Shown here one piece after another: positions 3,958 through 31,099 of a DNA stretch of 64,000 bases. The notes below the pieces were generated by a model. It was not told where the DNA came from, ran no database searches, and worked only from the letters and a program-made list of their open reading frames with translations. This DNA is from Liolophura sinensis (taxonomy: Eukaryota; Mollusca; Polyplacophora; Chitonida; Chitonidae). The DNA is taken from NCBI RefSeq assembly GCF_032854445.1, contig NC_088295.1, positions 18,525,385 through 18,589,384 of the forward strand. The letters are read 5' to 3'. A program made the position numbers and the translations under genes. How positions within the stretch are numbered: position 1 is the stretch's first letter; each line of letters opens with the position of its first letter.

Positions 3958-5841
3958 CACACTGCATCCATTTACATAACAGATTTGTTTATTTATTAGA
4001 CAGGTTTTTTACATCATACTCAAATGCTTTTCACTTATACGAGATGGGTGGTGGAAACTGGAGTAAGCCACTGTCCCTTCACCAGGTACAAACTCTGGCA
4101 TTAAGTCACAAGTATCTCAGCAATATGTCCAGCAGACAAGTACAGAATAAATACAATTAAACAATTGAACAAATAAATATGCAACAAAACAGGAAATATA
4201 TGACTAAGATAAATTTTATATATCACCAACCAAAAAGTGTGTACAAATAAACATGGGCAATATTTGTACATGGTATAAAGTATCTGTCCACAGAACTATG
4301 CACATTGAATACATTAAGATTATTTCGAACTTGGCTAATTTTCACTAGATTGTAATGTATTACATATATGGCATCTGCACCTGTGTACAGATTAGATGTG
4401 CAGGGCAGTTTAGCCAGTACACACAACCCTGGAGCTCTGCATATAGCGCTTACAAATCCCTACAGCCAGCTTTTCCCAACAGGAGTGAAAAGCTTAACTC
4501 TATTTCAACGACAGTAATGCATTTAAGTAATCTTTAAGGCATTGTCACTTTGGAGGACAAACAAAACAGCCTTCATGAAAATGTTTACAATATCCCAGCT
4601 TACACTAGATGCCATGTGCTTCCACTTCTTTTAACTGATCTGAAACTACTGCCTGGTCTGAGCTGCCAGAGAGTTTGACAAGAAAGCATGATCAGCAACC
4701 TACAGTTCAGACAGCTATCCCAGTGCAAAGTGAGTGGACAGAGCGGCTTGTTGACAGTACAGTCATAATCTAATTTCCCATTAAACCATGGATCACCCTC
4801 AGGACCAGCTACATTTTGGGGTATCATATCTTTTGAAACTTAGTATTATAACTTTTAGTACATGCAAGTTCAAAACTTTATCAAGTCCATGACAGCTATA
4901 ATTGAATTTCTGTTCTCACAACACTGCAAAATCTATTGTTAGTCATGTGAGGTAGCTTGCAGTAAAAGCAGATATACCACAGTAATTAAGATGTCTAAGC
5001 ACAAGATCACAGGTACCAGTACAGGTGTGAAATCTACACAAATTATACTTTCACAGTTTTCCTAAGTGATAATAGAATAAGTGGCAGAGATGCTATACAA
5101 ATTTATAATTATCATCCACAAAGCCTTGTTCTGAGTGCTCAGTTAAGCATGAAATACTCTTTCTAAAGAAGAAACTCAACGACATTCACCATACTTAAAT
5201 GAAGGAAATCACATGCTGAGATACAACAACGACCTCAGTCTTTCCGTACAACAACATACTAAACAGGCCTAAACAGTTGTCATTATGTCTTCTTACTAAA
5301 TGCCAAGTACTCAATCTACCATACTCCAATTCTAGTTGCAATAGACATTGTCACAACTGCCACACAATCACAGTTATTTAATATAATGATGTGGACGGAT
5401 AATCAGAACTTGTTATCAACATTAGTAAAGGGAAGCGGAAAGGTCTAAGCAGGTAAACCATGCTGGACGGATGTTAGACATGAGTAGGTTACTGTGTTTT
5501 AGTGGCTTGATGGGGCTGAATAGGGACATGAATACTTATGTTTTAGAAGGTTGAACAGAGACAGTGAGAGAGGTGCCAGAGGTGAGCTAAGAGCTGTTGT
5601 GTATAGATAATGTGAGGTGCCAAGTTGAGGCATGAGCTACTGTACTGAGATGCAGACTGTCTTTGTGTTACTGTATGTATGAGGTGACAGGCGACTGAAT
5701 AGGGGTTGTACGAGTCAGGTGTCAGGTGGTGAGGTGGAAGCTGCTGTGTGTATGATGTGCCAGGAGACTGTATAGAGGTTGCATGAGTGAGGTGTCGGGA
5801 GTTTGTAAGAGTGAGGTGTCAGAAGGTTTAAGAGAGAGGTG
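3958..5841 (-). other. Presumed FBF1 3' UTR and downstream region
   Basis: No coding exon is visible on either strand between the FBF1 stop and about 3,960. A minus-strand AATAAA (plus-strand tttatt) lies at about 3989-3994, inside a degenerate SINE, and could be a polyadenylation signal. This would make a UTR of about 1.9 kb. The true transcript end cannot be fixed from sequence. Confidence 0.35.
3985..4100 (-). mobile_element. Degenerate SINE
   Basis: It reads tttatttatt, catactcaaatgcttttcac and ttatacgagatgggtggtgg, the reverse complement of the family 3' part, about 25 percent diverged by eye. Confidence 0.55.
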
Positions 5842-5872
5842 TCAGGAGGTGAGACGGGAGCTGCTATATGGG
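5570..5872. repeat. Degenerate minisatellite spanning the FBF1 stop codon and proximal 3' UTR
   Basis: At least four imperfect units of the form gaggtgtcaggaggtgag, then a short spacer and gagctgctgtgtgtat, occur at about 5575-5608, 5612-5646, 5716-5750 and 5836-5872. Shorter gaggtgtc-containing pieces lie between them. The last unit contains the coding end of FBF1 (SSSRLTS and stop). Confidence 0.6.
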
Positions 5873-8900: not shown

Positions 8901-11900
8901 TAAGGTCAATCATTGTGGTAACAGCAAAATAGCAAGAACACACATGAATATTCAATCATTTGCAACCCTTCTTATAACCATATCGGCTTACTGTAAAGTA
9001 CTTATTATCCACTGGAATTCATGAATTCACAGGGCTCCTCATCAGTATAGCACTTGTCAACATGTTACCAACTTTCCACAGCTGTTGATTATTATGGTCT
9101 TTCTCCTCTTAACAAAGTTCTATCAGCATATAACCAAAATGAAAAGTGAAATGAAAAAGAGGTTCCCATAGTGTCCATAAGTCATCAGCTTCACACTACT
9201 AAAGTACTGGTTAGCCTGAAATCTCCTCCTACCTTAGCCTTGTCCAGTGCGGCCATCTCCCGCGCCTGCTGCTCCATCCAGCTCCGTCTGTCCTCCTCCA
9301 GGGAACTCTGCGCTGACACCAGCTTACTCTGTTCTTGTCTTAGTTTCCACTTCTCCTATAAACAAAATCATGGCCACGTATGTTTAACAGCTGGCACACA
9401 ATCATGAAAACTCTCATTGATGAGATTAAAATACAGTACTCACACACAGTAAACCAGCCATTGCAATACGAATATCTGACACAGTTAGAAATGCACAAGA
9501 ATCCTTTCTTGAAAGTACCTGTAGAATTACATGTGGAAAAGTGAACAATATATCAACAAAAACAAATGTCATTTGCACAAAGCAGTCCAAACATGGTGGC
9601 ACTCATTAGTTTAACAGCAACAACATAGAAAGTTTGGCTTGTATTGAAGTCTGAATCACATGATTTTTGCATGTGAATGAGTGACCTCATTGCTTGACCT
9701 CTGAAAGAAGTCTGGTAAAAACAAAATGGATTGTATGTATCTAAGAGCTGATATCTTAACCTAGGCCTGATGAAGGAAGCTGGATTTGGTCTATTTTTAG
9801 AATGAGCTGGCATATAGCAGCTCTCTAAATAGATCATTTCTGCTCAGACATATGAATTCTGTTCCACAGAACAAGTAAGATAAAGATACAAACTGAATTA
9901 TACAAAAACCATTTTAGAGCTAAGACGATGTTGTACCCAGACACACCTCATCCAATGTCCGGCTTTGGTCAGCTAACTGTTTCTCCAACCGCATGATGAG
10001 ATCTTGAAGACGTACACGTTCATTGCCGTTCTCTTCCTGCTGTTTATCAAGTCTCTTTTGTAACACTGAATACAACAAATAATTCCCTGTGATTCTGGAT
10101 TGTTGGTAACTACATGTATGACACACCAGAAGAATGTAACCATTTTACTAGTACAATGTAGTCAAAGTAGGTAAATGTCTAACTTAAATGTCTAACTAAA
10201 GATAATTCTTCCTCAGAGACACATGGCTTAAGACAGGACCTAATTGTGTATCTGCACAAGTGACAGGTGCTTGAGGACATGATATGCACATGAACGTGTC
10301 ATGCTATGGAGTAATCTAAGTCTATGTTGATGTGTTGAGTGAGCATTCCTCTATTCTCCCACAAAATGTGACCCATCAATGAAACATTTCAATATTATAT
10401 ACAAATCTTTGATGAGCATCATGAATTATACACGTTAATTACACCCAAATACTGCACTGCTAAAGTAGATTTCTTACTGCTGAGCTGTTCATCTTTGGTG
10501 CGTATGAAGATCTCTCTCTCATCCAGTCCCATCTTACTCCAGTTCTCAATCTTGTACTGTAAATCACCCAGGTCCTTTGCATTGGAACTCACCTGCTGCA
10601 TCACAGCCTGAAGGGATCTGTCAATCACAGGTAAATATCACACATCAAGTTGTAAATGTCACAGTCACTGGCAAATGTCACACCAGCCACTGGCATGTGT
10701 CACACAACTACTTGCATGCGCCTCACAGCCACTGGCATATGACAAACAGCGGCTGACAAATGTAACACAGCCACTGGTTAATGTCAAAACAAAAAAAAAA
10801 AACCCACTGGCAAATGTCCCACAAGTATGACATACATCATTTCTACAATATCTTAGTTTTAACAGTTTCCTAACTAAAAGCTGCATGCTAGTAAACATAT
10901 ATCTCTATTGCAAAGCACATATGAGGACAGCAGTTCCCATGCACACATGTATCAAAGAGATGCATTGAATACAAATGGAATATTGCACAACTGCATAATA
11001 CATATAAATAAAATAAACTCAAAACAAAGCATTTGGAAATGAGAAGAATTAAAAGCAGAGCACTAAAAGTCCTCAAGAACTTACTTGGCAGCAGAATGCG
11101 AATTTGCAATGTTATCTATTTCCTGCTTTTTCACAGCTCTAAGTCTGTCCAATGATTCTTCATACTCTCTCTTCAGCTCTGCTATCATCTTCCTGCAATG
11201 GAGGCCATAGCTCTCTTTAAAATACATGATAACTTCAGAGCTGTCAACCCAGTAAGACCAAAAAAGTGAGTAACCCAAACAACCCGGGTCGAAGGGCTGC
11301 AGACCCCAATGCGGGTCCAAGGCAAATTCCTAGTGGCTCAGTCTAATGGGATGAAAACCACCAGGAGAAAACAGTCTTGTATTTTTAACTGTATTTTGGA
11401 AACTGGTGATGGCAAGTTTACACATATTTTCTCGTTATACAAGATGAAACCCTCATAAAACAGTAACATCCTGAACTGTAATTCTTCACTTTTATCACAC
11501 ACGTATCCATTTCCATAAAATTTGTAAACAGAATAAACTCCCCTCCTCAGTGGACATGAAAACTACTGTGGATGTGTGTGTGTACCTCTGAGTCTCCCTG
11601 ACTCTCTCCACTTCCTCCGCCTTCTCCTTCTCCACACTCTCTATCCTCCTCTCCATATTAACCTTCTCCTGCTCCAGCTCCTTCAGCCGTGACATGTGCT
11701 TAGACAATAACCTCTCATTCTCCTCATTCCACCTGCAATCACACAGCCAAATGCATGTATCTTCATTCATGAATGAACACGATAATGTAATTTTCATTTG
11801 TAAGCATACATCTAAAATCATATGCTATAGTGTTTGTATGGCTGCTGGATGCTCCATCACATGAAATGTAATGGTTTGATTGGGTGATGCTGTTAGTTTT

Positions 11901-14900
11901 ATCTGAATTCCTCAGGTCTTGCACTAGCTGGTCAGTAGTGTTTTAATATAACTGTCCTTTCAGAGCTTACATTATCAAAGATCATCCTTTTACTCCACAG
12001 ACTAGCCAATCTAAGTAAGTGACAGTAGTACATAACTCTTTAAAGATGCCTAGAACAAATTCATTCATCTTGTTATTTATAAGCATCGGCTTAACAAAGC
12101 ACATAAATGGCAGATACACATACTATTTCAACCACATATTAACACCGAGGGCACTGAAAAGGTATAATATGAAACATAACATGTATTACATGAATTACAG
12201 AATCTTTATTTATTCTTTATTGTTGAATGCCATAATCAAGAAGTTTCACATAAACAACAGAGGTCAGTTTTATGGGTGAAGGAAACCACAGCGCCCACAG
12301 TAAACCAATAACCTCTGTCAAGTTACCAATCAACTAAACCTGTCTCCAGAGTACTGCTGACTTATTACTGTACTAAATCCACACACAGAATGAGAGCTTG
12401 TTTCTATGCTCCACAGTTCTTCACTGTGGACAAATAAGTGATAAGTGGTAAGTATAATATATAAAGGGCAACATAACCTTACCGTTCTTCCAGTTTATGC
12501 TGACTGTCCTCAAGAACTTTGATGCGGTTTCTACAAATAACATAAACAAGAAATTAAATCCAACTATGCAACATCTGCGAAGATTACAAATGAAATTAAG
12601 AATTAGTATACAGCTATATATTAACATCAAGCATCCTCTATTTAAAGCCAGTCTTCCACCATGACACAGCAATGTCACAAGGGTGCCAAAGCAATATACA
12701 TGTATGCACAGATGTATACTTGTAAGACATTTTCTGAAATTATAAAACCATGTTGATTTGTAAGGCATTTAAAGGACACTGTATATACTTGTGTGACTCT
12801 CTTAGACATTTTACTTGTGGCTCATTTTCTTCCCCATGACACTGTACATAAATGTACAAAATTTCAATGACAGAGTACATACATGTACATTTACTTGTAG
12901 GACATTTCTTGACAATTCGTGGACACTTTGCATACTTGTAGGACATTTCTTGATAATTCTTGGACACTTAACATACTTGTAAGACATTTCTTGGACACTT
13001 TACATACTTGTAGGACATTTCCATGGCTGTTAACTCCTCCTCATAGCGTCTGTGGTTGACGTCACAACGAGACTGCAGGCATTCCAGCTCTATCTCCAGC
13101 TTTCTCACCTGCACAACCACATGTTTACATACAAACTTTACTACCACTATTTTGTTCGCCCAACTATATGCACTTCTTGTGAATGTGAATGTCACTTTGA
13201 TTCTGCCAATACACTAAATTTGAAAATCACACCATGCCGACCAAATTAGAATGTAGACCAAAATAAATTGCTACAAGAAAACATCTTCCTAAAATAATGA
13301 ACGTTATGTGATAACCACATATGATGACATCATTATCACAATGCGCACTGCATTTTTGGAACCCTTTTACCTCCACCTATATTTAATTTAGGTAATCTGA
13401 CGTGTCTGTTAGTTGTAAGAGTAAAATGAAACATTCCCAGTGAAGTATATTGACCTGAAGCTTAGATCAGATCTTTAAACGATCCTCTGCCTTCTTCCTG
13501 CACTTAGCTTTGATGATACAACACTCACTGCTAGTCCAAAATCTGATCCTGTATTTGTCAACCTCAGGCTATTTCCTGATTATGCTAATCAAACTGACAG
13601 TAAATTTACCTTAGTCTCATTATCCATGCTGGCGTAGAGTGGGTCTAATCTGATGGACTTGTGAGCAGCTGATGACAGAAGGCCATGAGAAGGGACAGCC
13701 AGGCCCTGGAAGCTTGACAAGCTGCTCTGTGAAACACAAAGTGCATGTTGCATTTAAATACATTTAGTAAATACAATGCCACAGCTCCACAAACAAAGTG
13801 AAGATTGTCAATGTTTTTCTGTTTCTATTAATGTTCTAAAGTATTACAGTCCTTGAATTCCAACTTGTACATACATTTAAGAATAGGTAGATATAACTGA
13901 TCTCAACACCTTTGCCATTTCATTAGCCTGGTACTGTTGTTGTAACTGAGATATCATCCCTTCCAGCTGGCTCTGCTGTTGTTGTAATGCTAGCTGCTCC
14001 TGCTGTTGTTTCAGTTTCATTTGCTCCTCCTAAACAAGAAGATATACCGAAATTCAATTTCTATTGTAGTCTATACATATGAATACAGATAATAATCTCA
14101 TTTCTGTAAGTACAAATAATTAACACAGTGAAAAGAGACAGGAACTGGGCCCATTCTCATGCATCTTTATACATAAATTTCAATCTGTAAGAATACACCA
14201 TCTGTTTGTAGAAGTTTTATTTGTTACAAGTTCCCATATTCTCTGGTAGTAAATAGAAAAGAAAAAAAACGTGGGACAAGCCAGGAGTTGAATTCCAATC
14301 TGACACTGAACAGCACCTTGACAAGAAAGAGACTACAATGATCTCCCATTTTAGTTCACCAAGACACTGAACAGCTTCACCCCTCACCATCTGCAGACGC
14401 AGCTGATCCTGGGCCTGCTGTATCTGATGCTGGAGAACATGTTGTCTGTCTCCACCCAAGGGCAGTCCAGGAGGGATAACTGGCTGTGGGGTGAGCTTGG
14501 GCTCACCCAATAACTGCTCCACTCTTGCAGACGTAGAAACAGCCGAAGAATTATGAGGGTCTCTGCCTACAGAACAAACAATACAATGTGTCCAGAAATG
14601 AGGCTAACATTTTAAAAGACCAAGATTTCTGTTTATTTAATTAGCAGTTTAGTAGCTAAATCATTTCATCAGAGGAAATACACAAATTATAACTAATTCC
14701 GGATTATGCATTTTAAATTCTGTCCATAATTCACTATTGATCTAATTATTGATCTGATTGGAGTTTTATGTCGTATTCAAGGATATTTCACTTATACGAC
14801 AGTGGCCAAAATTGTGGTGGAAGGAAAATGGGAAGAGCCCGAGGAAATCCACCACTGATTGACTATGGCTTAATGCCACATCTCTAATATTTCAGCCATG

Positions 14901-17900: not shown

Positions 17901-20900
17901 AAAATGAACACACTTCATAAAAAGGTAGGCCTAATCAGTTCATAAGTAAGTCCACAATTATTCAGTTTCAAACCAAAATTAATAAAATCTGGCCTGTCAG
18001 CACAGGAGATATGACATACAAGTTTACAGTCTCCTAATATGTCAAATTACTGACAAACGAACAAACAGACACACAAACATGGAAGTTGATTCAGTCTTAA
18101 GGCCCATACCCTGAAGATATAAGGCAAACTTAGTGAGGTTTTAATTCTAGTGACATTATGTGAACAGAGTACAGTGGAAGACATATACACAGCAAGCAGG
18201 TTCAACAATAATAATTTGCTCCTAATTTTTGGGACACCTGGTCTGCTCCTTTTAGCCAATATACATGTAAATGTAGCAGAAATTTTCTTTTCTTTTTGTT
18301 TTCATATGGTTAGTCCATCTAATCAACAACATATTTATATATTTACTTTTCCAAAAAAAAAAAAAATAACTGGGAAAGACACGTAATTCTTTGCTTTCAA
18401 CATTGCTAATATCTATCCTAAAAATTACAAAAAATAGGGTAACATATTGTCCAATTATATGTTACAGCTTTTCCCCAGCTTAAACATACTAATGAGGAGT
18501 TCAATAAAACCTGAACAGCTTCAAACCATTGGTCCTTGATGTAACATGATTCACACACATACTGTAAGTTCATCAATTTAAAATATCGGACAGTCTTTCA
18601 CTGGCTGAGAGGTCCTACAGGTTACGTTTTGAATGTTTATAGCCTTGATCAACAACATTACGTGTTCTAATCCACTTTTCATCAGCAAGGTGCAGTTCAT
18701 CACTGAAGTATGACATCCGTTAAATAATTACAATCCGAACAGGTAGCTACCTTGAGCTGGTTTCTGGTATTTTTTATCCAGGACAAATTCCCGCTGACTG
18801 CCTGACTGAGGTCTCTCCAGATGTTTGGAGACGTTATCGTTCCCCAGCAGGGAGTCCAGGATGGATTTAGCAGGTTTGTTCTCATGGTCAGAACTCAAGG
18901 AGGAAGGTTTGGGTTTCGAGGGAGGCTCATCATCCAGTCCTGTCAGAAGGTCATCCTCTGTGTCGCTGAATATTACATCATCTTTCTTCTTCGCAGCTTT
19001 ACCTGTGAAAAAGGTCAAGACTGACTGATTCTATGTGTAAAGAATCACAAATTTATGGCTTCTAATAAATAAATTAAAATAAATTTTTAAGTCTAATATC
19101 TACATCTACATGCATGTGAAGGACATACAGCAGAAATTCAACATACTTTCTATTCTTCATTACCTACGTAAACTGTAAGTTTAGTTACAGTTTGTATTTA
19201 TCTTTACAATGAAACACTATACTCATTACACTTGGTATAATGTAAAGCAAACTATGAAACGTTTCAAACGTGTTGTATCATTAATACATCCATATTCAGT
19301 CATTGGAACATGAAAACATATTTCCCTTTATCTGCAAGATATAAAAAATACAAAAAAATGTCGGGCGTTGCCGTCATCATAAAATGTGGTGTTTTGTGTC
19401 TTAATGTTTATGCGACAGCTATCACTACTCACCTTTGTTAGTTTCCACTTTTTTAGCTGAAGGCGCAGACTCTGTAGCTGGTTCGAACAGTTTCTCTTTG
19501 ACAGTGTCATTAGAATCCGTATTGTCCCCGCTCCTAGTTGGGGGACGTTCCATCAACCGCCGTCGCCTTGGAGACACTGATACAGAAAACAGTGAGTGTA
19601 AATACCAGATTCCTTGGCAGCAGTCTGATCAGAGTTTACAACGCTAACCGCCAAAAAATATTTCTTCTGACATGAGACATGAACAATGTTGTGTACGTAA
19701 ATGCTAAATCATTTCAACAAGTGAATTTTTGTTTATCACAGTCCCACATCTTCTATATGACAAAAGCTCTGTGAAACTTGTGGAAAAGGCAAATATATAC
19801 CATCCTTGTCTTACAATAGTCTGTAGAAGAACATAGGCAAAGAATAAAGTCTTCCTGGTTCTGGTTGCTAGATTGATTGACGAGAGGAACTTTGGTGAAC
19901 TTACAGGGCTCTCGGTCTTGCACACCCTGGGGTGTTTCTCCTGACTCCCTGGGAGAAGAAACAGTTGGTTGGGAAGAAGACTTTTTATTCTCCTCTGCAG
20001 CTGTGGTCTTAGCTTCATCCAAATCATCATCTTCATCAGACAACAGTCCTGCTAAGGGGTCATCCTCATCAAAGTCTGACAAGTCACAAAAACATGGATA
20101 TATTATACCAGACAACAGTCCTGCCATTGGGGTCATCCTCATCAAAGTCTGACAAGTCACAAAAACAGGGCTATATTACATCAGACAACAGTCCTGCTAA
20201 GGGGTCATCCTCATCAAAAGTTTGACAAGTCACAAAAACATGGATATATTATACCAGACAACAGTCCTGCCAAGGGGTCATCCTCAGCAAAGCCTGACAA
20301 GTCACAAAAACATGGATATATTATACCAGACAACAGTCCTGCCAAGGGGTCATCCTCATCAAAGTCTGACAAGTCACAAAAACAGGGCTATATTACATCA
20401 GACAACAGTCCTGCCAAGGGTCATCCTCATCAAAGTCTGACAAGTCACAAAAACAGGGCTATATTACATCAGACAACAGTCCTGCTAAGGGGTCATCCTC
20501 ATCAAAAGTCTGACAAGTCACAAAAACATGGATATATTATACTAGACAACAGTCCTGCTAAGGGGTCATCCTCATCAAAGTCTGACAAGTCACAAAAACA
20601 TGGATATATTATACCAGACAACAGTCCTGCCATTGGGGTCATCCTCATCAAAGTCTGACAAGTCACAAAAACAGGGCTATATTACATCTGGCAACAGTCC
20701 TGCCAAGGTGTCATCCACATAGAAGTCTGACAAGTCACAAAAACGTGGATATATTACATCAGACAACAGTCCTGCTAAGGGGTCATCCTCATCAAAGTCG
20801 GACAGTGTCACAAAAACGTGACCATATTACATCTGGCAACAGTCCTGCCAAGGTGTCATCCTCATCAAAATCTGACAAGTCACAAAAACATGGCAATATT

Positions 20901-23900
20901 ACATCAGACAACAGTTCTGCCGAGGGGTCATCCTCATCACAAGTCACAAAAACATGAGCTGCATGTATACTACAATCGGTCTGTCTTAATCTGTCATTGG
21001 TCAGATCAGAAGGTGTACACATACGTATAAATTTGGACTTAGATACATTGACATACCTCCATAGATATATTTTGGCTTGGCTTTAGGCACAGTTCTTGGT
21101 CTCTCCTGTTTGGTATCACCAGGTTTTAACTTCTCTGAATCTCGTGATAAACCTAAACAGATCAGAAAAAATTGAAGAATACTACTATGAAACAGAAGGG
21201 GTCATCATATGGTGTTACAAAAGGAACATCTGAACATCTGTGTTACAAAAGGAACATTTGTAACAGTAAACTACATGTATGTACATATCCACATTTAATT
21301 GTCTTTGGATGTAGAAAATGTAAATTAATATTGCAGGAGAGCTCTGTAAACTATCAGGTAAGCAGATGAGATTTAATAAACTTACCTGTAATGCTACCTG
21401 GTGCTGTAGAAGGTTTGGCGGCTTGCTGGGGAGGAGACTGAACCCTGGCCGAGGGTCTGCTGCCTGAAGCACTACCTGGTGGGCTGGTTGGGGTAGAGCT
21501 GCGGACTAATCCTCCCTTTTGGGGCGGAGATACAGCCCTGGGGGTACGTGGAGTCCTCTGTCTGGGGGTGCCAGTCCCAGAACCAGATTTCTTCTTGTTG
21601 TATTTCCCACCAAACAAATCTGCATCCAAGTCATCCAGGTCCTGGTGGAAATTAGGGAAGTTTTTTTATGTACATTTTGTGCCTAAAGTACCCAAACACA
21701 GTGGAGGTACTGGAATATTGACAACACCTCTGACTGAATTAGAGCTTAACGCCACATCAGCAATGTTTCAGTCATATCGTACCAATATAGTGGCATACTC
21801 ACAAGAGCATATACAAGATGGACACAGCATTTACATGGCGTATCTTTATACATGTACTGTCTTACAATATCAAATTCATAATATTTTTCTAAAAAAAAAA
21901 ACCCAGCAAAAAACAAGATTATTTCTATCAATAAAATAACGCTTGTGTATGATTTAAACATGAATTAGAGAGCACACTGAAGGGGAGTAACCCTACGGTC
22001 CACTCACAGCTAGAGTTTTAGCCACTTGACTGACATCAGCCTCAGAGATATCGGACTCATCTGGTTGGCCGGCCACAGATGCCAAGTTACTATAGAAGTC
22101 ATCATCGGCTGCACTGCAATGTCCATCAGAATATTAAAAACAATATAAACAAATATCATATAAACAATATGCAGTTAAATGTCTTAAACAATATCGAAAG
22201 AATAGTGTCCAGATTTAACTCCTGGTCCAAATTATAAAGATTATAACCTGTTTAAACAGTATGTTACCTAGAGGGCTTCTGAGAAATTCTATAATGGCTT
22301 TAAATCCACGAAAAACAACAGATTTACTGGCCTATGTGGTCTCCTGCTTGCGGCCTGGTACGGCTCAGAGGGTGATGACATAGATGGCCTACCCAAGCTT
22401 AGCTGGCCTGTATAACCTGGGAATTCATATCAAAACGATGTCAAATTTTGAGATGGATCCTAGCTACACAGAAGCAAGTATAATGCCTTTGAAGAAGTTG
22501 ATGTTCTGATTTATGACACGGACATATCTTGCCAGACTTCAGATTCCAAGTTTTCTGACCTTGAATTTGATCTTCGTCCAGGAGTTTCCAACCACAATGA
22601 CAATGCGGACTGGTAAGTTATAGCTTCATCCTGTGTTACACTATAGGTGTCTTATCTTAAGATTTAATATTTATTTACTATTCTTTCTTTCTATTTGCTT
22701 CACTATAAATATAACTCTACTCCTCAAGGGGTTCTAAATTCATGCCAATGTGTGATGACAACTACTGGTACATGTTATTGTTTGCATTCCAAACAACCTA
22801 TCCATATAGGGGCCTAAGGCCGTGTACAAAATAAATACATGTACATGTACAGTGTGGACGTCGGCATTAGTGAACAGAGATTTGCTATCAATCAGTTTTC
22901 AGTTCAGTCAATAGTATTTTATAACCACTGTGTGCAGGAGCTGTTGTGAAAATCTTAAGAATTCAGCTGTATTCCTCTCGTAGCTTTCAGCTGTAAAATG
23001 GCGAGAGCGCGGGTATGGCTGTTTTTGGTTGGTCCACAATCCTGCCATCTTGTGCTGTAAATCCACCCTTCCTGACGCCCAAATCGTCTGGAAACTTGAA
23101 GAAACTAATTCCAGGGTTTTTCGACGACCTGTTTTTACAACCGTATGTAGAATAGCAAACCATTTTGTGGAGAAATTTGATATGCTTGTTGTCACTTTTG
23201 TACCTGTTTTCAACACTGAAGTAAATGACAAAGCTCTGACAGCTCAAAAAGGTTGGACCGGTATGACGTAATTCTGTGGAGACTACCAAGTGTTGGTGGA
23301 AAAAAATGCATAAAACCAGCCTCATTATCTTATGATTTTAAGTTCCATATTACTCAGATTATTCCATCCTTTTTCGATATATATTTTGGCACTTAATTTA
23401 ACAACTGTACCCAGGGGTAGCTAATTATGAATAAATGATGAATCTGGACACTTAATCTTATTAATTTATTTTTTCTGATTGGTGTTTTATAAGAATATTT
23501 CACGTATACAATTTTGGCCATTGCAGGTTGCTGGCAGACCCACTAATCCTTTAAGAATTCTTTTAACTTCAATGTTTTTCTACAAACACTTCAAAACATT
23601 CCAATATATGTTGCACAGAATGAACAGAAATAAAATTTACCTAGCTTTTGGTTTTAGTCTTGAAGATTCTCTCTGAAAAGATATGACAAAATGATGATAT
23701 ATTGAGAGGACATTTCTACGAAGCAAAGTATGACCCTGATAAGAAAATGCTCACAGTAAATATCAATTTGACTCCACTAGTTGAGGTATTTATGAGACAA
23801 GAGAACAAGGCATTCAGAGAACACTGGTAACATGGCTGATTGAGCTCAAATGCTGACCTCTAAACCAAACTAAAGTACAATGACACTGTCATACATAGAG

Positions 23901-27863: not shown

Positions 27864-28214
27864 GGTCACTTAAAGCCGTAATCAAACACTGGAAATCATT
27901 TCAAGGAGCCAATAAGCTATCTCCATAGCCGTAAATTTGAACCGCAGGACGCCATTTTGAAAATATCGCCAAAAGTCACGTGTCCAATGCATGCCATTCT
28001 CCGCAAAAGGGTGTTTTTCGTAAACGTGCAGACTCGTACTTTCTACAAGCCATTTAACGCAGTGTCTGGGAAAGGTACAAGTGTCTACGCTTGATGTGTG
28101 GAGAGAGGTTGCTAGGAGAACAAGAACGCCTCCTGTCTTAATAAGAGAGTGACAGTCGAAGTAGACATCTGCAAATTTCATTTTCGACGCCGCCAGGTAC
28201 ACAAACACAACAAA
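27864..28214. promoter_or_regulatory. Bidirectional promoter shared by FBF1 and NME5
   Basis: The two start codons face away from each other with 351 bp between them. The interval is CpG-richer than its surroundings, contains an E-box-like gtcacgtg and a gacgccattttg (YY1-like) word, and carries a perfect X-box. Both 5' UTRs must lie within it unless upstream noncoding exons exist. Confidence 0.8.
28108..28121. promoter_or_regulatory. RFX X-box
   Basis: GTTGCTAGGAGAAC matches the ciliary X-box consensus RYYNYY-N(1-3)-RRNRAC at every position with a 2-nt spacer. It lies about 93 bp from the NME5 ATG and 244 bp from the FBF1 ATG, within the usual distance for RFX-regulated ciliary genes. Confidence 0.8.
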
Positions 28215-31099
28215 ATGACAGGAGAAAGTGAGGAAAAGATCACTATGGAGCAGCCTAGCATATATGTAGAGAAAACGCTTGCAATCGTCAAACCAGATGC
28301 TATCAACAAATCGGAAGAAATTGAAGATATCATTTTAAGATCTGGGTTTTCTATCTTGCAAGTATGTTACCATGTGTTCTTCTTTCTGTTGATATTTTCT
28401 GACTTTGTAATCGACTTTTTCTTTATCCCATGTCATTTTACATGTTGTTTATGAAATAGACTTATTCATGAAATAGACTAGTTTAGTAGTCATGCACGAC
28501 ACGACAGATTTATGAGACAGGTTTGTTTTAATCATCATTCAGGTGTCAAATTTAAGAAATTAAATGCACACAGTGCAAAGGATTGGACTACATAATTTAC
28601 ACTAAAAAAAGTTGTAACGGCACTCACAATTCACAATTTGGGCAAATCTATGCAAGGAAAATTAAGAAATGTGTGTAGATCATTGCTATAACCTTGGATA
28701 CAGTACATTCTTTGTACGGGCAATTGTTAAGACCAGGATGCTGTGACAGAGATGACAACATGTAAAATAGCCACCTATTCCTTACGACTCCCTTGTTAGA
28801 TTTATTGCAAGCATGTATTGTTAAATCTATGAAAAATTCATGCATGGTAGTGGGAAATTTTCTAGATGCACAGGAACCCTGTTACTTCATGAACAAAATT
28901 GTCCAAGCAAGTGGATAAATGGACTAATTTGTACTGTTTGTTTTCTATCTTTCAGAAAAGGCGGGTTCACCTAACACCAGAGCAGGCGAGTGACTTTTAT
29001 GCAGAGCATTATGGAAAACTGTTTTTTCCCAGTTTAGTAGCATACATGAGCAGTGGTCCAATCTTGGCTCTTGTTTTGGCTAGAGATAATGCCATTGCCC
29101 ACTGGAGGGAATTGATTGGTCCTACCAACACAATCAAAGCACGACAAACTCACCCTGACTGGTCAGTATTCTCAATTAGTGCACAACTTGACTTTCATTT
29201 TTATATGTGCAGCAATTACTTATACAAAGTGTTACCAGCAGCCTTACATGTTATTGTTCACTTGGGGCAGATCGCATGGTTAACAAGATCTTTGATTTTG
29301 AATCAGTCAAAAACATGATGAAGTATAGGTTGGTTTAGTCTCAGTCAGATAGGAGCTTTTCCAGTTCCCTACACATACCTTGTCTGAGAAATTGGTTCAA
29401 TATTGAAGTAATTAACAACTCAACAAGTCAGGTCATTTGGTTGTTATCTTGCATAAAGTTTGTTGGAGATAAATGCCTTTCACCAATATGACTTGTATTT
29501 GCAGCCTTAGAGCCTTGTATGGCACAGATGACCAGAGAAATGCCCTCCATGGTAGTAGCTGCTTCTCAAATTCTCAGAGAGAAATTCGTTTTTTCTTTCC
29601 AGACAGTAAGTACATATTGCTCTTCTGAAGTTTCATTAGTCAACAGCATATGAGGTCTCAGACTATACATGTATGTGGTATTGTAGTAAGTTTACTGTAT
29701 GCCTGACCTGTATTCTTTATGGTGAAATCTTGGGCCCCTTGATCAGACCCCCATTCAGTCAGTGCTTATAAACACAAATGTTTCTTTGCAGGTATTGTTG
29801 AGCCAGTTGCAGTCGGCCAGGCTGCCAAGGATTACTTGTCCCGTGCAGTCAATCCAACTCTGCTGAAAGGTCTCACACAACTGTGTAAGGAAAAACCAGG
29901 GGATCCAGTGGTAAGATCATAGATCAAGTAAAACATGGCAAACACTTACAAAACACGGAAATTAAAGGAGAGATGGCACAGGATAATATAACAATCTACA
30001 AGTGCTGTTCTTTTTGCCTGATGCAGCTTATGGTAATGACAAAAGAGATACTAGTAGGGTTTCCAAATTCAGTGTGTATACTGTACATGAATTCTCCCAA
30101 CCGGTGGACATGACATGGTCAAATGTTGAACTTATTGGCATTAGTTTTTCTCTTTATTATTTTTTTTTTAACTTAAAGTAAAAGAAAGCTAATATAGGAA
30201 GTAAGGTTCATAATACAGACAGATGAAAACTATGCGTAAAAATACTTGTATATATATATTTTCAGATTTTATTAAGAGTGTTGAAAGGCATTCAAATATT
30301 TCAAAACTATGGTGGGCTTTATGAGCCGTACTTACGGTATCTCGGAACTCTGACGTCACATCACCTTTTTTCCTGATGTTCACCAGAAGGAACTAATTTT
30401 TGAGAACATTATTTCAGTATTCTTTCACTCATGGGTAAAAAGAGTTTATAAAACATCAGAGTTCCTAACCTCTGATAGTGTGGTCCATAAAGCCCATCTT
30501 AGAATTCAAATGTTTGAGTGCCTTTAACTGTTTTCATGAAAATCTGAAAAATAAATGAAAGTATATTTATGTATAGTTTTAAGTGGTCTATTTAGTGATG
30601 CCTACCTCAGTTTTTAGTGGTCTTTTCCTTTAAATTTACAGATTTTGCTCTTAATTGTTTTCCATTCAGGAAACATGGTTAAATATTTGTATGAGCTCAC
30701 ATACTTTAAAGAAAAATGGGTCTGTGCATGTGTTTCATAAATACAGCACAGCTTCTAGTTATGTACTTGTTTATTGTGTTACTACCTTGGTCAAGATTAG
30801 CAGAGAATCGTTGCATTCTCGTCTAGTGATAAAGGAAAGTAGGGAGGAAAATCTCTGCATCAGTGTAAGAGAACAGGGCAGGAAAATGGTCTCTTATTTC
30901 TGTTTCTTTTACAGATTCACATTAGGTGGATATCACAGGTTTATTGGCTCTTCAAGTTTCCTTATTTGTGCAATTAAAGGTTGCATGAAAGTTTAACTTA
31001 TGATTTTTTTTAACCCTTCAGCTTTGGTTGGCAGACTGGCTACTGGAAAACAACCCAAATAAGCCTCAAGTTCAGGAGTATGCTGTGGAAGAATCTTAA
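28215..31099 (+). CDS. NME5: NME5, nucleoside-diphosphate-kinase-like axonemal protein with Dpy-30 tail (5 exons, 216 aa)
   Basis: Exons: 28215-28361, 28956-29161, 29505-29605, 29792-29910, 31022-31099; phases agree and total 651 nt. The NDK domain starts at YVEKTLAIVKPDAI (17-30) and includes GKLFFPSLVAYMSSGP, ETHPDS-like QTHPDC and LRALYGTDDQRNALHGSS (119-136) with the catalytic-type His at 133. After GQAAKDYLS a Dpy-30-type helix pair follows (LLKGLTQLCKEKPGDPVLW, then LADWLLENNPNKP, about 175-206). Human NME5 has the same layout and length (212 aa). NME5 is a cilium/flagellum protein associated with radial spokes; as a group II NDK it is thought to have little kinase activity. Start choice: ATG at 28215 gives MTGESEEK; MEQPS ten codons on is an alternative. 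The gene shares its promoter with FBF1. Confidence 0.95.
30228..30578. repeat. Long inverted repeat (foldback/MITE-like) in NME5 intron 4
   Basis: The arm at 30228-30355 (from aactatgcgtaaaaatac to ggaactctgacgt) is the imperfect reverse complement of 30453-30578 (from acatcagagttcc to tgtatagtt). Shared blocks are ttttcagatttt, atgggctttatg and ggaactctga. Arms are about 127 bp and the spacer about 97 bp. Similarity continues weakly outward to about 30190 and 30620. No coding capacity is seen. Confidence 0.75.

Follow-up and report, generated by a model that had tools for sequence, protein, structure and literature searches.

Tandem minisatellites that run across an exon boundary, at either edge of the exon, have been described in lancelets under the name of 'mirages' (PMC3087553; PMC3902484), the first of them by Canestro in 2002, as cited in PMC3087553. 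The reported cases include Adh3, the globin genes BflGb6 and BflGb9, TnC and PGBD5; AG/GT signals are described in many of the units, together with concerted evolution inside the cluster (PMC3087553; PMC3902484). Copy number varies between haplotypes, those of BflGb6 carrying 6 and 3 repeat units, and regular splicing was reported to be undisturbed as judged by reverse transcription PCR (RT-PCR; PMC3087553). Among the matches listed in the open-licence PMC literature no molluscan mirage was found, the reports there concerning lancelets only. Here we describe a similar array at the boundary of intron 8 and exon 9 of the gene FBF1 in a chiton, Liolophura sinensis. It lies in a 64-kb stretch of DNA, hereafter the window, which corresponds to positions 18,525,385-18,589,384 of a 96,433,062-base contig. 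Very probably, judging from its sequence, the array is an inert boundary minisatellite that is spliced out with intron 8, only the exon-proximal acceptor being normally used.

Like the lancelet mirages, the FBF1 array consists of tandem copies laid over an intron-exon boundary, and many of its units, albeit not all (9 of 12), carry a splice signal. It differs from them in its molluscan host and in its extent: FBF1 has twelve extra copies, and each of three kinesin exons of the same genome has over 20 splice-like sites (see below). Whereas splicing in lancelets was tested by RT-PCR, the chiton array is known here from the genome sequence and the annotated protein.

The assembly searched comprises 609,464,459 bases in 632 contigs; the species name of the chiton assembly described in PMC11068029 was corrected to Liolophura sinensis in PMC12441733. 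The FBF1 model consists of 32 exons on the minus strand, from 27863 to 5842, and codes for 1361 aa; coding exons span 9-358 nt and the shortest intron is 162 nt long. Its translation is 100% identical to the annotated protein P0001, 'fas-binding factor 1 homolog [Liolophura sinensis]', which joins exon 8 straight to position 20075 and is the single member of its cluster at 90%. The Pfam FBF1 domain PF21007 was matched over the whole profile (1-524 of 524; E 5.3e-133, 444.8 bits against a curated cut-off of 45), this match and the homolog search having been run on a 1359-aa draft with six bases wrong at exon 25. Among the matches listed, P0001 hits the genome in 25 exons, all of them in the FBF1 locus, of which one copy only was seen in the assembly; neither a paralog nor an uncollapsed haplotype was seen among them.

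Tandem Repeats Finder (TRF) reported the array with a period of 72 (12.6 copies, score 1413) and with a period of 145 (6.3 copies, score 1420). The unit of about 72 bp combines the last ~33 nt of intron 8 with the first 39 nt of exon 9 and thus spans the exon-intron boundary. In gene order, units U1-U12 lie upstream and are followed by U13, the live end of intron 8 with 39 nt of exon 9, so that the beginning of the exon is itself part of the last copy. Upstream units are 71-73 bp long, except for U1 (64 bp). A preliminary description of this DNA, made from its letters, had named the gene, the exon numbers, an acidic motif FDEDDPLAGLLS and an exon edge as the source of the repeat; the PF21007 match and the identity of the model with P0001 bear this out, as does TRF for the tandem array, and exons 8 and 9 both run from phase 1 to phase 1, as it had stated. 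A search of the genome with the unit returned at least 13 matches, every listed one at the FBF1 array. A dispersed mobile element is not supported, since the 13 listed matches are confined to one locus. The features of the locus are collected in Table 1.

Table 1. Features in and around the exon-edge arrays of FBF1 (window coordinates; splice scores from the matrix described in the text).
Feature	Position	Strand	Remarks
72/145-bp minisatellite	20034..20945	-	12 upstream units and the terminal unit, which is the live intron 8/exon 9 edge
FBF1 exon 8	21057..21152	-	96 nt, phase 1 to 1, donor GAG/GTATGT
FBF1 exon 9	19905..20075	-	171 nt, phase 1 to 1, donor CCT/GTAAGT
Live exon 9 acceptor	20075..20075	-	First exon base; score 9.22
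Nine decoy acceptors	20148..20871	-	Scores 8.25-10.2
First exon bases of the decoys	20871, 20726, 20654, 20581, 20509, 20436, 20365, 20293, 20148	-	Matrix-scored sites
Potential 39-nt mini-exon	20543..20581	-	In frame; donor CTA/GTATAA, not among sites scoring above 2
Potential 39-nt mini-exon	20327..20365	-	In frame; donor CTG/GTATAA (2.06)
Potential 39-nt mini-exon	20255..20293	-	In frame; donor CTG/GTATAA (2.06); codes for GFAEDDPLAGLLS
145-bp stretch	20544..20688	-	Exact copy of 20182-20038, where the live acceptor and nucleotides 1-38 of exon 9 lie
Second exon-edge array	12892..13021	-	Final 14 nt of exon 20 repeated together with the donor

The sequence that follows the exon part in each unit offers a hint at the origin of the array. 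After the letters TCT the units have one of two main fillers, GGTATAATATATCCATG or GATGTAATATAGCCCTG, of which U1-U3 and U6 show variants. Taken from its GT onward, the former (filler GTATAATATATCCATG) is as similar to GTATACATGCAGCTCATG, the intron sequence that immediately precedes U1, as were 4 of 5000 shuffles, and the latter resembles this flank to a degree reached by 42 of 5000, both comparisons having been picked after looking at the sequences. The likeness is compatible with an exon end rejoined to intron sequence by tandem duplication, in which case the GT behind the exon part would be inherited from the intron rather than selected.

Splice sites were scored with a matrix built from the 31 introns of FBF1, a small sample. 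The acceptor AG is kept in nine of the 12 upstream units, having been lost by deletion in U1 and replaced in U3 (which reads CCG) and U11 (CAA), so the earlier statement that the unit carries a 3' splice site applies to most units and fails for these three. The alternative offered there, a splicing machinery with some dozen decoys to reject, agrees with this count. Those that remain are about as strong as the live site, while real FBF1 acceptors have a median score of 7.43. Were exon 9 lengthened to any of these nine decoys, a stop codon would be met inside the extension in nine of nine cases. Near-equal strength and universal stops could be taken together to suggest a brake, in which leaky use of upstream acceptors would yield premature-stop transcripts and the number of copies would set FBF1 output through nonsense-mediated decay. 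We consider this very unlikely. Stops are expected by chance in such extensions, as 22%, 1.7% and 0.3% of shuffles stayed open in the three of the nine that were shuffled (73, 218 and 290 nt, respectively), and chance being sufficient, we do not claim that the stops are a designed safety either. Furthermore, nothing indicates that the array is under selection, and other exons have arrays of this type as well.

It was also proposed in the preliminary description that the array is a variable cassette, mini-exons at 20581-20543, 20365-20327 and 20293-20255, or the fused 20365-20255, adding acidic FDEDDPLAGLLS motifs to the protein. Frame analysis agrees that the three mini-exons are in frame; together with the fused 111-nt form they are the four acceptor-donor pairs, among those listed, that are in frame and free of stops, and their acceptors are strong. 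The frame is kept in only three of the 12 units, however, and inclusion 'singly or together', as was suggested, does not hold for the neighbouring pair 20365-20327 and 20293-20255, which, if spliced as separate exons, would need a 33-nt intron between them, against a shortest intron of 162 nt in this gene. The donors are a further difficulty. Real FBF1 donors score between 0.8 and 11.7 (median 7.33), and only one of the 31 is as low as the in-array donor CTG/GTATAA, whereas CTA/GTATAA at 20542 does not appear among the sites scoring above 2. The in-frame units thus have donors weaker than at least 30 of the 31 real ones. Another in-array donor, GAT/GTAATA, scores 3.7, with three of 31 real donors at or below this value. 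The in-array donors examined fit 4-5 of nine consensus bases, and those of exons 8 and 9 fit seven.

Comparison of the copies does not point to a translated repeat. The 39-nt exon part of the 13 units has 14 substitution columns, distributed 5/5/4 over codon positions 1/2/3 (Fisher P 0.73), and hence no codon-position bias among these copies. One-base insertions or deletions interrupt the exon part in five of the 12 upstream units (U5, U7, U8, U11 and U12), and U1 is minus a block. Pairwise differences per site in the exon and intron parts were 0.083 and 0.104 for U1-U12, 0.074 in both for U4-U12, and 0.044 and 0.073 for U5-U12.

The motif itself is widely conserved, FG(D/E)FDEDDPLAGLLSDE or a near form being present in molluscs, a nemertean, an annelid, echinoderms and a lancelet (rows P0001-P0040), which would suit a cassette of acidic motifs. 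Yet in 80 FBF1 proteins, no other chiton being among their names, the strict pattern DP[LFM].G[LIF] was found once in 71, not at all in eight and twice in one, a toad. The eight comprise seven molluscs (three sea slugs, three oysters and a pond snail) as well as one toad, so not every FBF1 has the motif. With weak donors, no coding constraint, a single sequence in the protein cluster and a single motif in most relatives, the cassette is, in our judgement, highly improbable. A misassembled or collapsed repeat is next to impossible: although tandem arrays are generally error-prone in draft genomes, this is a HiFi assembly with a reported mean read of 8,347 bp, far longer than the 912-bp array (PMC11068029), the matches listed lie at a single locus and the units are distinguished by clear variants.

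Some copies are identical or nearly so. U5 equals U12 exactly and U7 differs from U11 at one base, while U1, at the far end, is the most diverged (edit distance 13-16). The terminal copy shares its exact 145 bp with an inner block (Table 1). The identity of U5 with U12 and the exact 145-bp repeat point to recent turnover of the array, and as the repeat spans the live acceptor, the live edge appears to take part in this turnover.

The array at exon 9 is not the only one at an exon edge in FBF1. At exon 20 it is the donor side that is repeated, giving decoy donors at 12976, 12935 and 12894, and use of any of the three would lead to a stop. At both edges the annotated protein uses the exon-proximal copy. 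Possible decayed copies are seen at 12717-12757 and 12764-12802 (61% and 64% alike, respectively).

A survey of a second set of exons was based on a kinesin motor-domain search of the genome, which gave 132 exon matches, 100 of them covered by 36 merged segments (L018-L072; 199,115 bp). Exon ends were inferred from the domain matches, some of which may be array copies themselves (L057), and with one gene family and FBF1 the sample is small. In the segments 75 separate arrays with a period of at least 10 were counted, which occupy 34,943 bp or 17.5% of the sequence, as against 2.6% in the 64-kb FBF1 window. Eleven arrays were flagged, ten crossing the edge of an exon match and one ending within 30 nt of it. 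Inspection by eye assigned nine of the 11 to exon edges (L023, L049, L051, L054, L057, L068, L069 and L070, with L048 as a probable case); the flagged arrays of L047 and L053 were rejected. Exon-edge arrays were thus present at nine of 100 kinesin exon matches, with up to 46 copies and up to 28 same-type sites scoring 6 or more. In L023, on the plus strand, for example, a 64-bp unit repeated 11.8 times places eight decoy acceptors before an exon that starts with EAMSINKSLS. The 73-bp units of L057 end in coding LMFGQR and a GTAAGA donor, giving 22 donors of score 6 or more, the live one included, and L068 has 25 donors and L069 28 acceptors scoring at least 6, again counting the live site. It therefore seems that exon-edge arrays are not private to FBF1 in Liolophura sinensis.

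The orientation of the splice-like sites differs between the array classes. With a score of 7 or more, the nine edge arrays have 83 sites on the sense and 9 on the antisense strand; the corresponding counts are 60 and 100 for the remaining 66 arrays and 848 and 440 outside arrays. The figures for the 66 other arrays do not support a general derivation of intronic minisatellites from exon edges. Nor do the arrays appear to be drawn to such edges, since ten crossings were seen in the kinesin segments where random placement avoiding the swallowing of exons gave 14.2 (P 0.93 for at least ten, 0.12 for at most ten). An attraction in FBF1 is equally unsupported, three of its six arrays crossing an edge with 1.5 expected (P 0.16). 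The kinesin genes lie in surroundings rich in minisatellites, and where one of these starts at an edge, the splice site is duplicated with it.

Taken together, these observations favour an inert array in FBF1. P0001, the sole sequence of its cluster, joins exon 8 to 20075; the donors inside the array are weak, every extension stops, and the copies show indels and no codon-position bias; and similar arrays are present at exon 20 and at nine of 100 kinesin matches, while those of lancelets are reported, from RT-PCR, to leave splicing undisturbed. We infer that tandem duplication of the intron 8/exon 9 boundary, comprising ~33 nt of intron and 39 nt of exon 9, founded the array, which would later have been enlarged by unequal exchange or conversion. 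The exon-proximal acceptor, with the whole exon and a good donor behind it, would be the site normally used in the animal, the other copies being removed together with intron 8. The weak GT 'donors' would then be by-products of the exon-to-intron junction contained in each copy, and any leak into the decoys would presumably be eliminated in the form of premature-stop transcripts.

Several points weigh against this reading. The annotated FBF1 model was probably built from short reads, in which exons of 39 nt can go unnoticed. The decoy at 20148 is as strong as the live site (9.39 against 9.22) and would give a 244-nt exon, within the size range of the coding exons of the gene, so that its strength and the length of the resulting exon are not by themselves enough to account for its rejection. 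Between copies, the exon part varies somewhat less than the intron part does in two of the three comparisons, which speaks against complete neutrality, although the lower variability is without the codon-position pattern of coding constraint. Finally, in the FBF1 of the toad Pelobates fuscus (P0031) the acidic motif is doubled along with ~50 surrounding residues (residues 160-235), a longer coding segment, while that of P. cultripes (P0034) has one strict copy of the motif.

Intron 8 of FBF1 can be regarded as a natural competition test, in which the annotated protein reflects the use of a single one among ten near-identical 3' splice sites. The interest of the finding centres on how frequent exon-edge arrays are in a mollusc. 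That they are a genome-wide condition in this chiton, affecting several per cent of exons, is a tentative and rather doubtful extension, to which we give a lower probability because minisatellites make up 2.6% of the window and 17.5% of the kinesin segments. If arrays do stand at several per cent of exons, as the small kinesin sample suggests, RNA-seq data published for this species could be used to weigh exon context against the splice site. Splice choice in this animal would then work daily against near-identical decoys, so that the decision would have to draw on information from outside the site itself, and the arrays would offer a constant supply of new exons and introns. The earlier remark that an exon edge spreading as a repeat is rarely described is fair only outside lancelets, in which the phenomenon has a name, and needs to be qualified for the chiton itself, in which other exons have similar arrays. 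If the literature is as confined to lancelets as the matches listed, the 'mirage' class would be extended to molluscs.

Boundary repeats may take other courses. The element from which antifreeze glycoprotein repeats expanded straddled an intron-exon boundary. In these genes of Antarctic fish a short coding element is described as having expanded in tandem inside gene sequence of greater age, which recalls FBF1 (PMC12776774); its repeats are translated, whereas those of FBF1 are most likely intronic. In the potato RdRp gene a boundary duplication is reported to have created a new spliced intron by activation of a good cryptic donor, GTAAG (PMC4974935). There too the duplicated boundary has an acceptor and an exon start and meets a cryptic donor, but the FBF1 array has GTATAA or GTAATA as its junction donors, and the annotation contains no new exon. 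A tandem duplication inside FBF1 itself has been described in Icelanders; it covers exons 4-7, that is, 7,282 bp of whole exons, alters the transcript and is not an exon-edge minisatellite (PMC8190123).

Two smaller arrays of FBF1 remain to be mentioned. A 24-bp array of 3.2 copies at 5775-5850 takes in the stop codon, exon 32 ending at 5842, together with the beginning of the downstream sequence. In intron 23, a 21-bp array of 5.6 copies at 10660-10777 comes to about 42 nt upstream of exon 24 (which starts at 10617) and does not reach the exon. On the plus strand, reading frames at 28116-29922 of the window diverge from FBF1, the two starts lying a few hundred bases apart; these frames resemble an NME5-type nucleoside diphosphate kinase.

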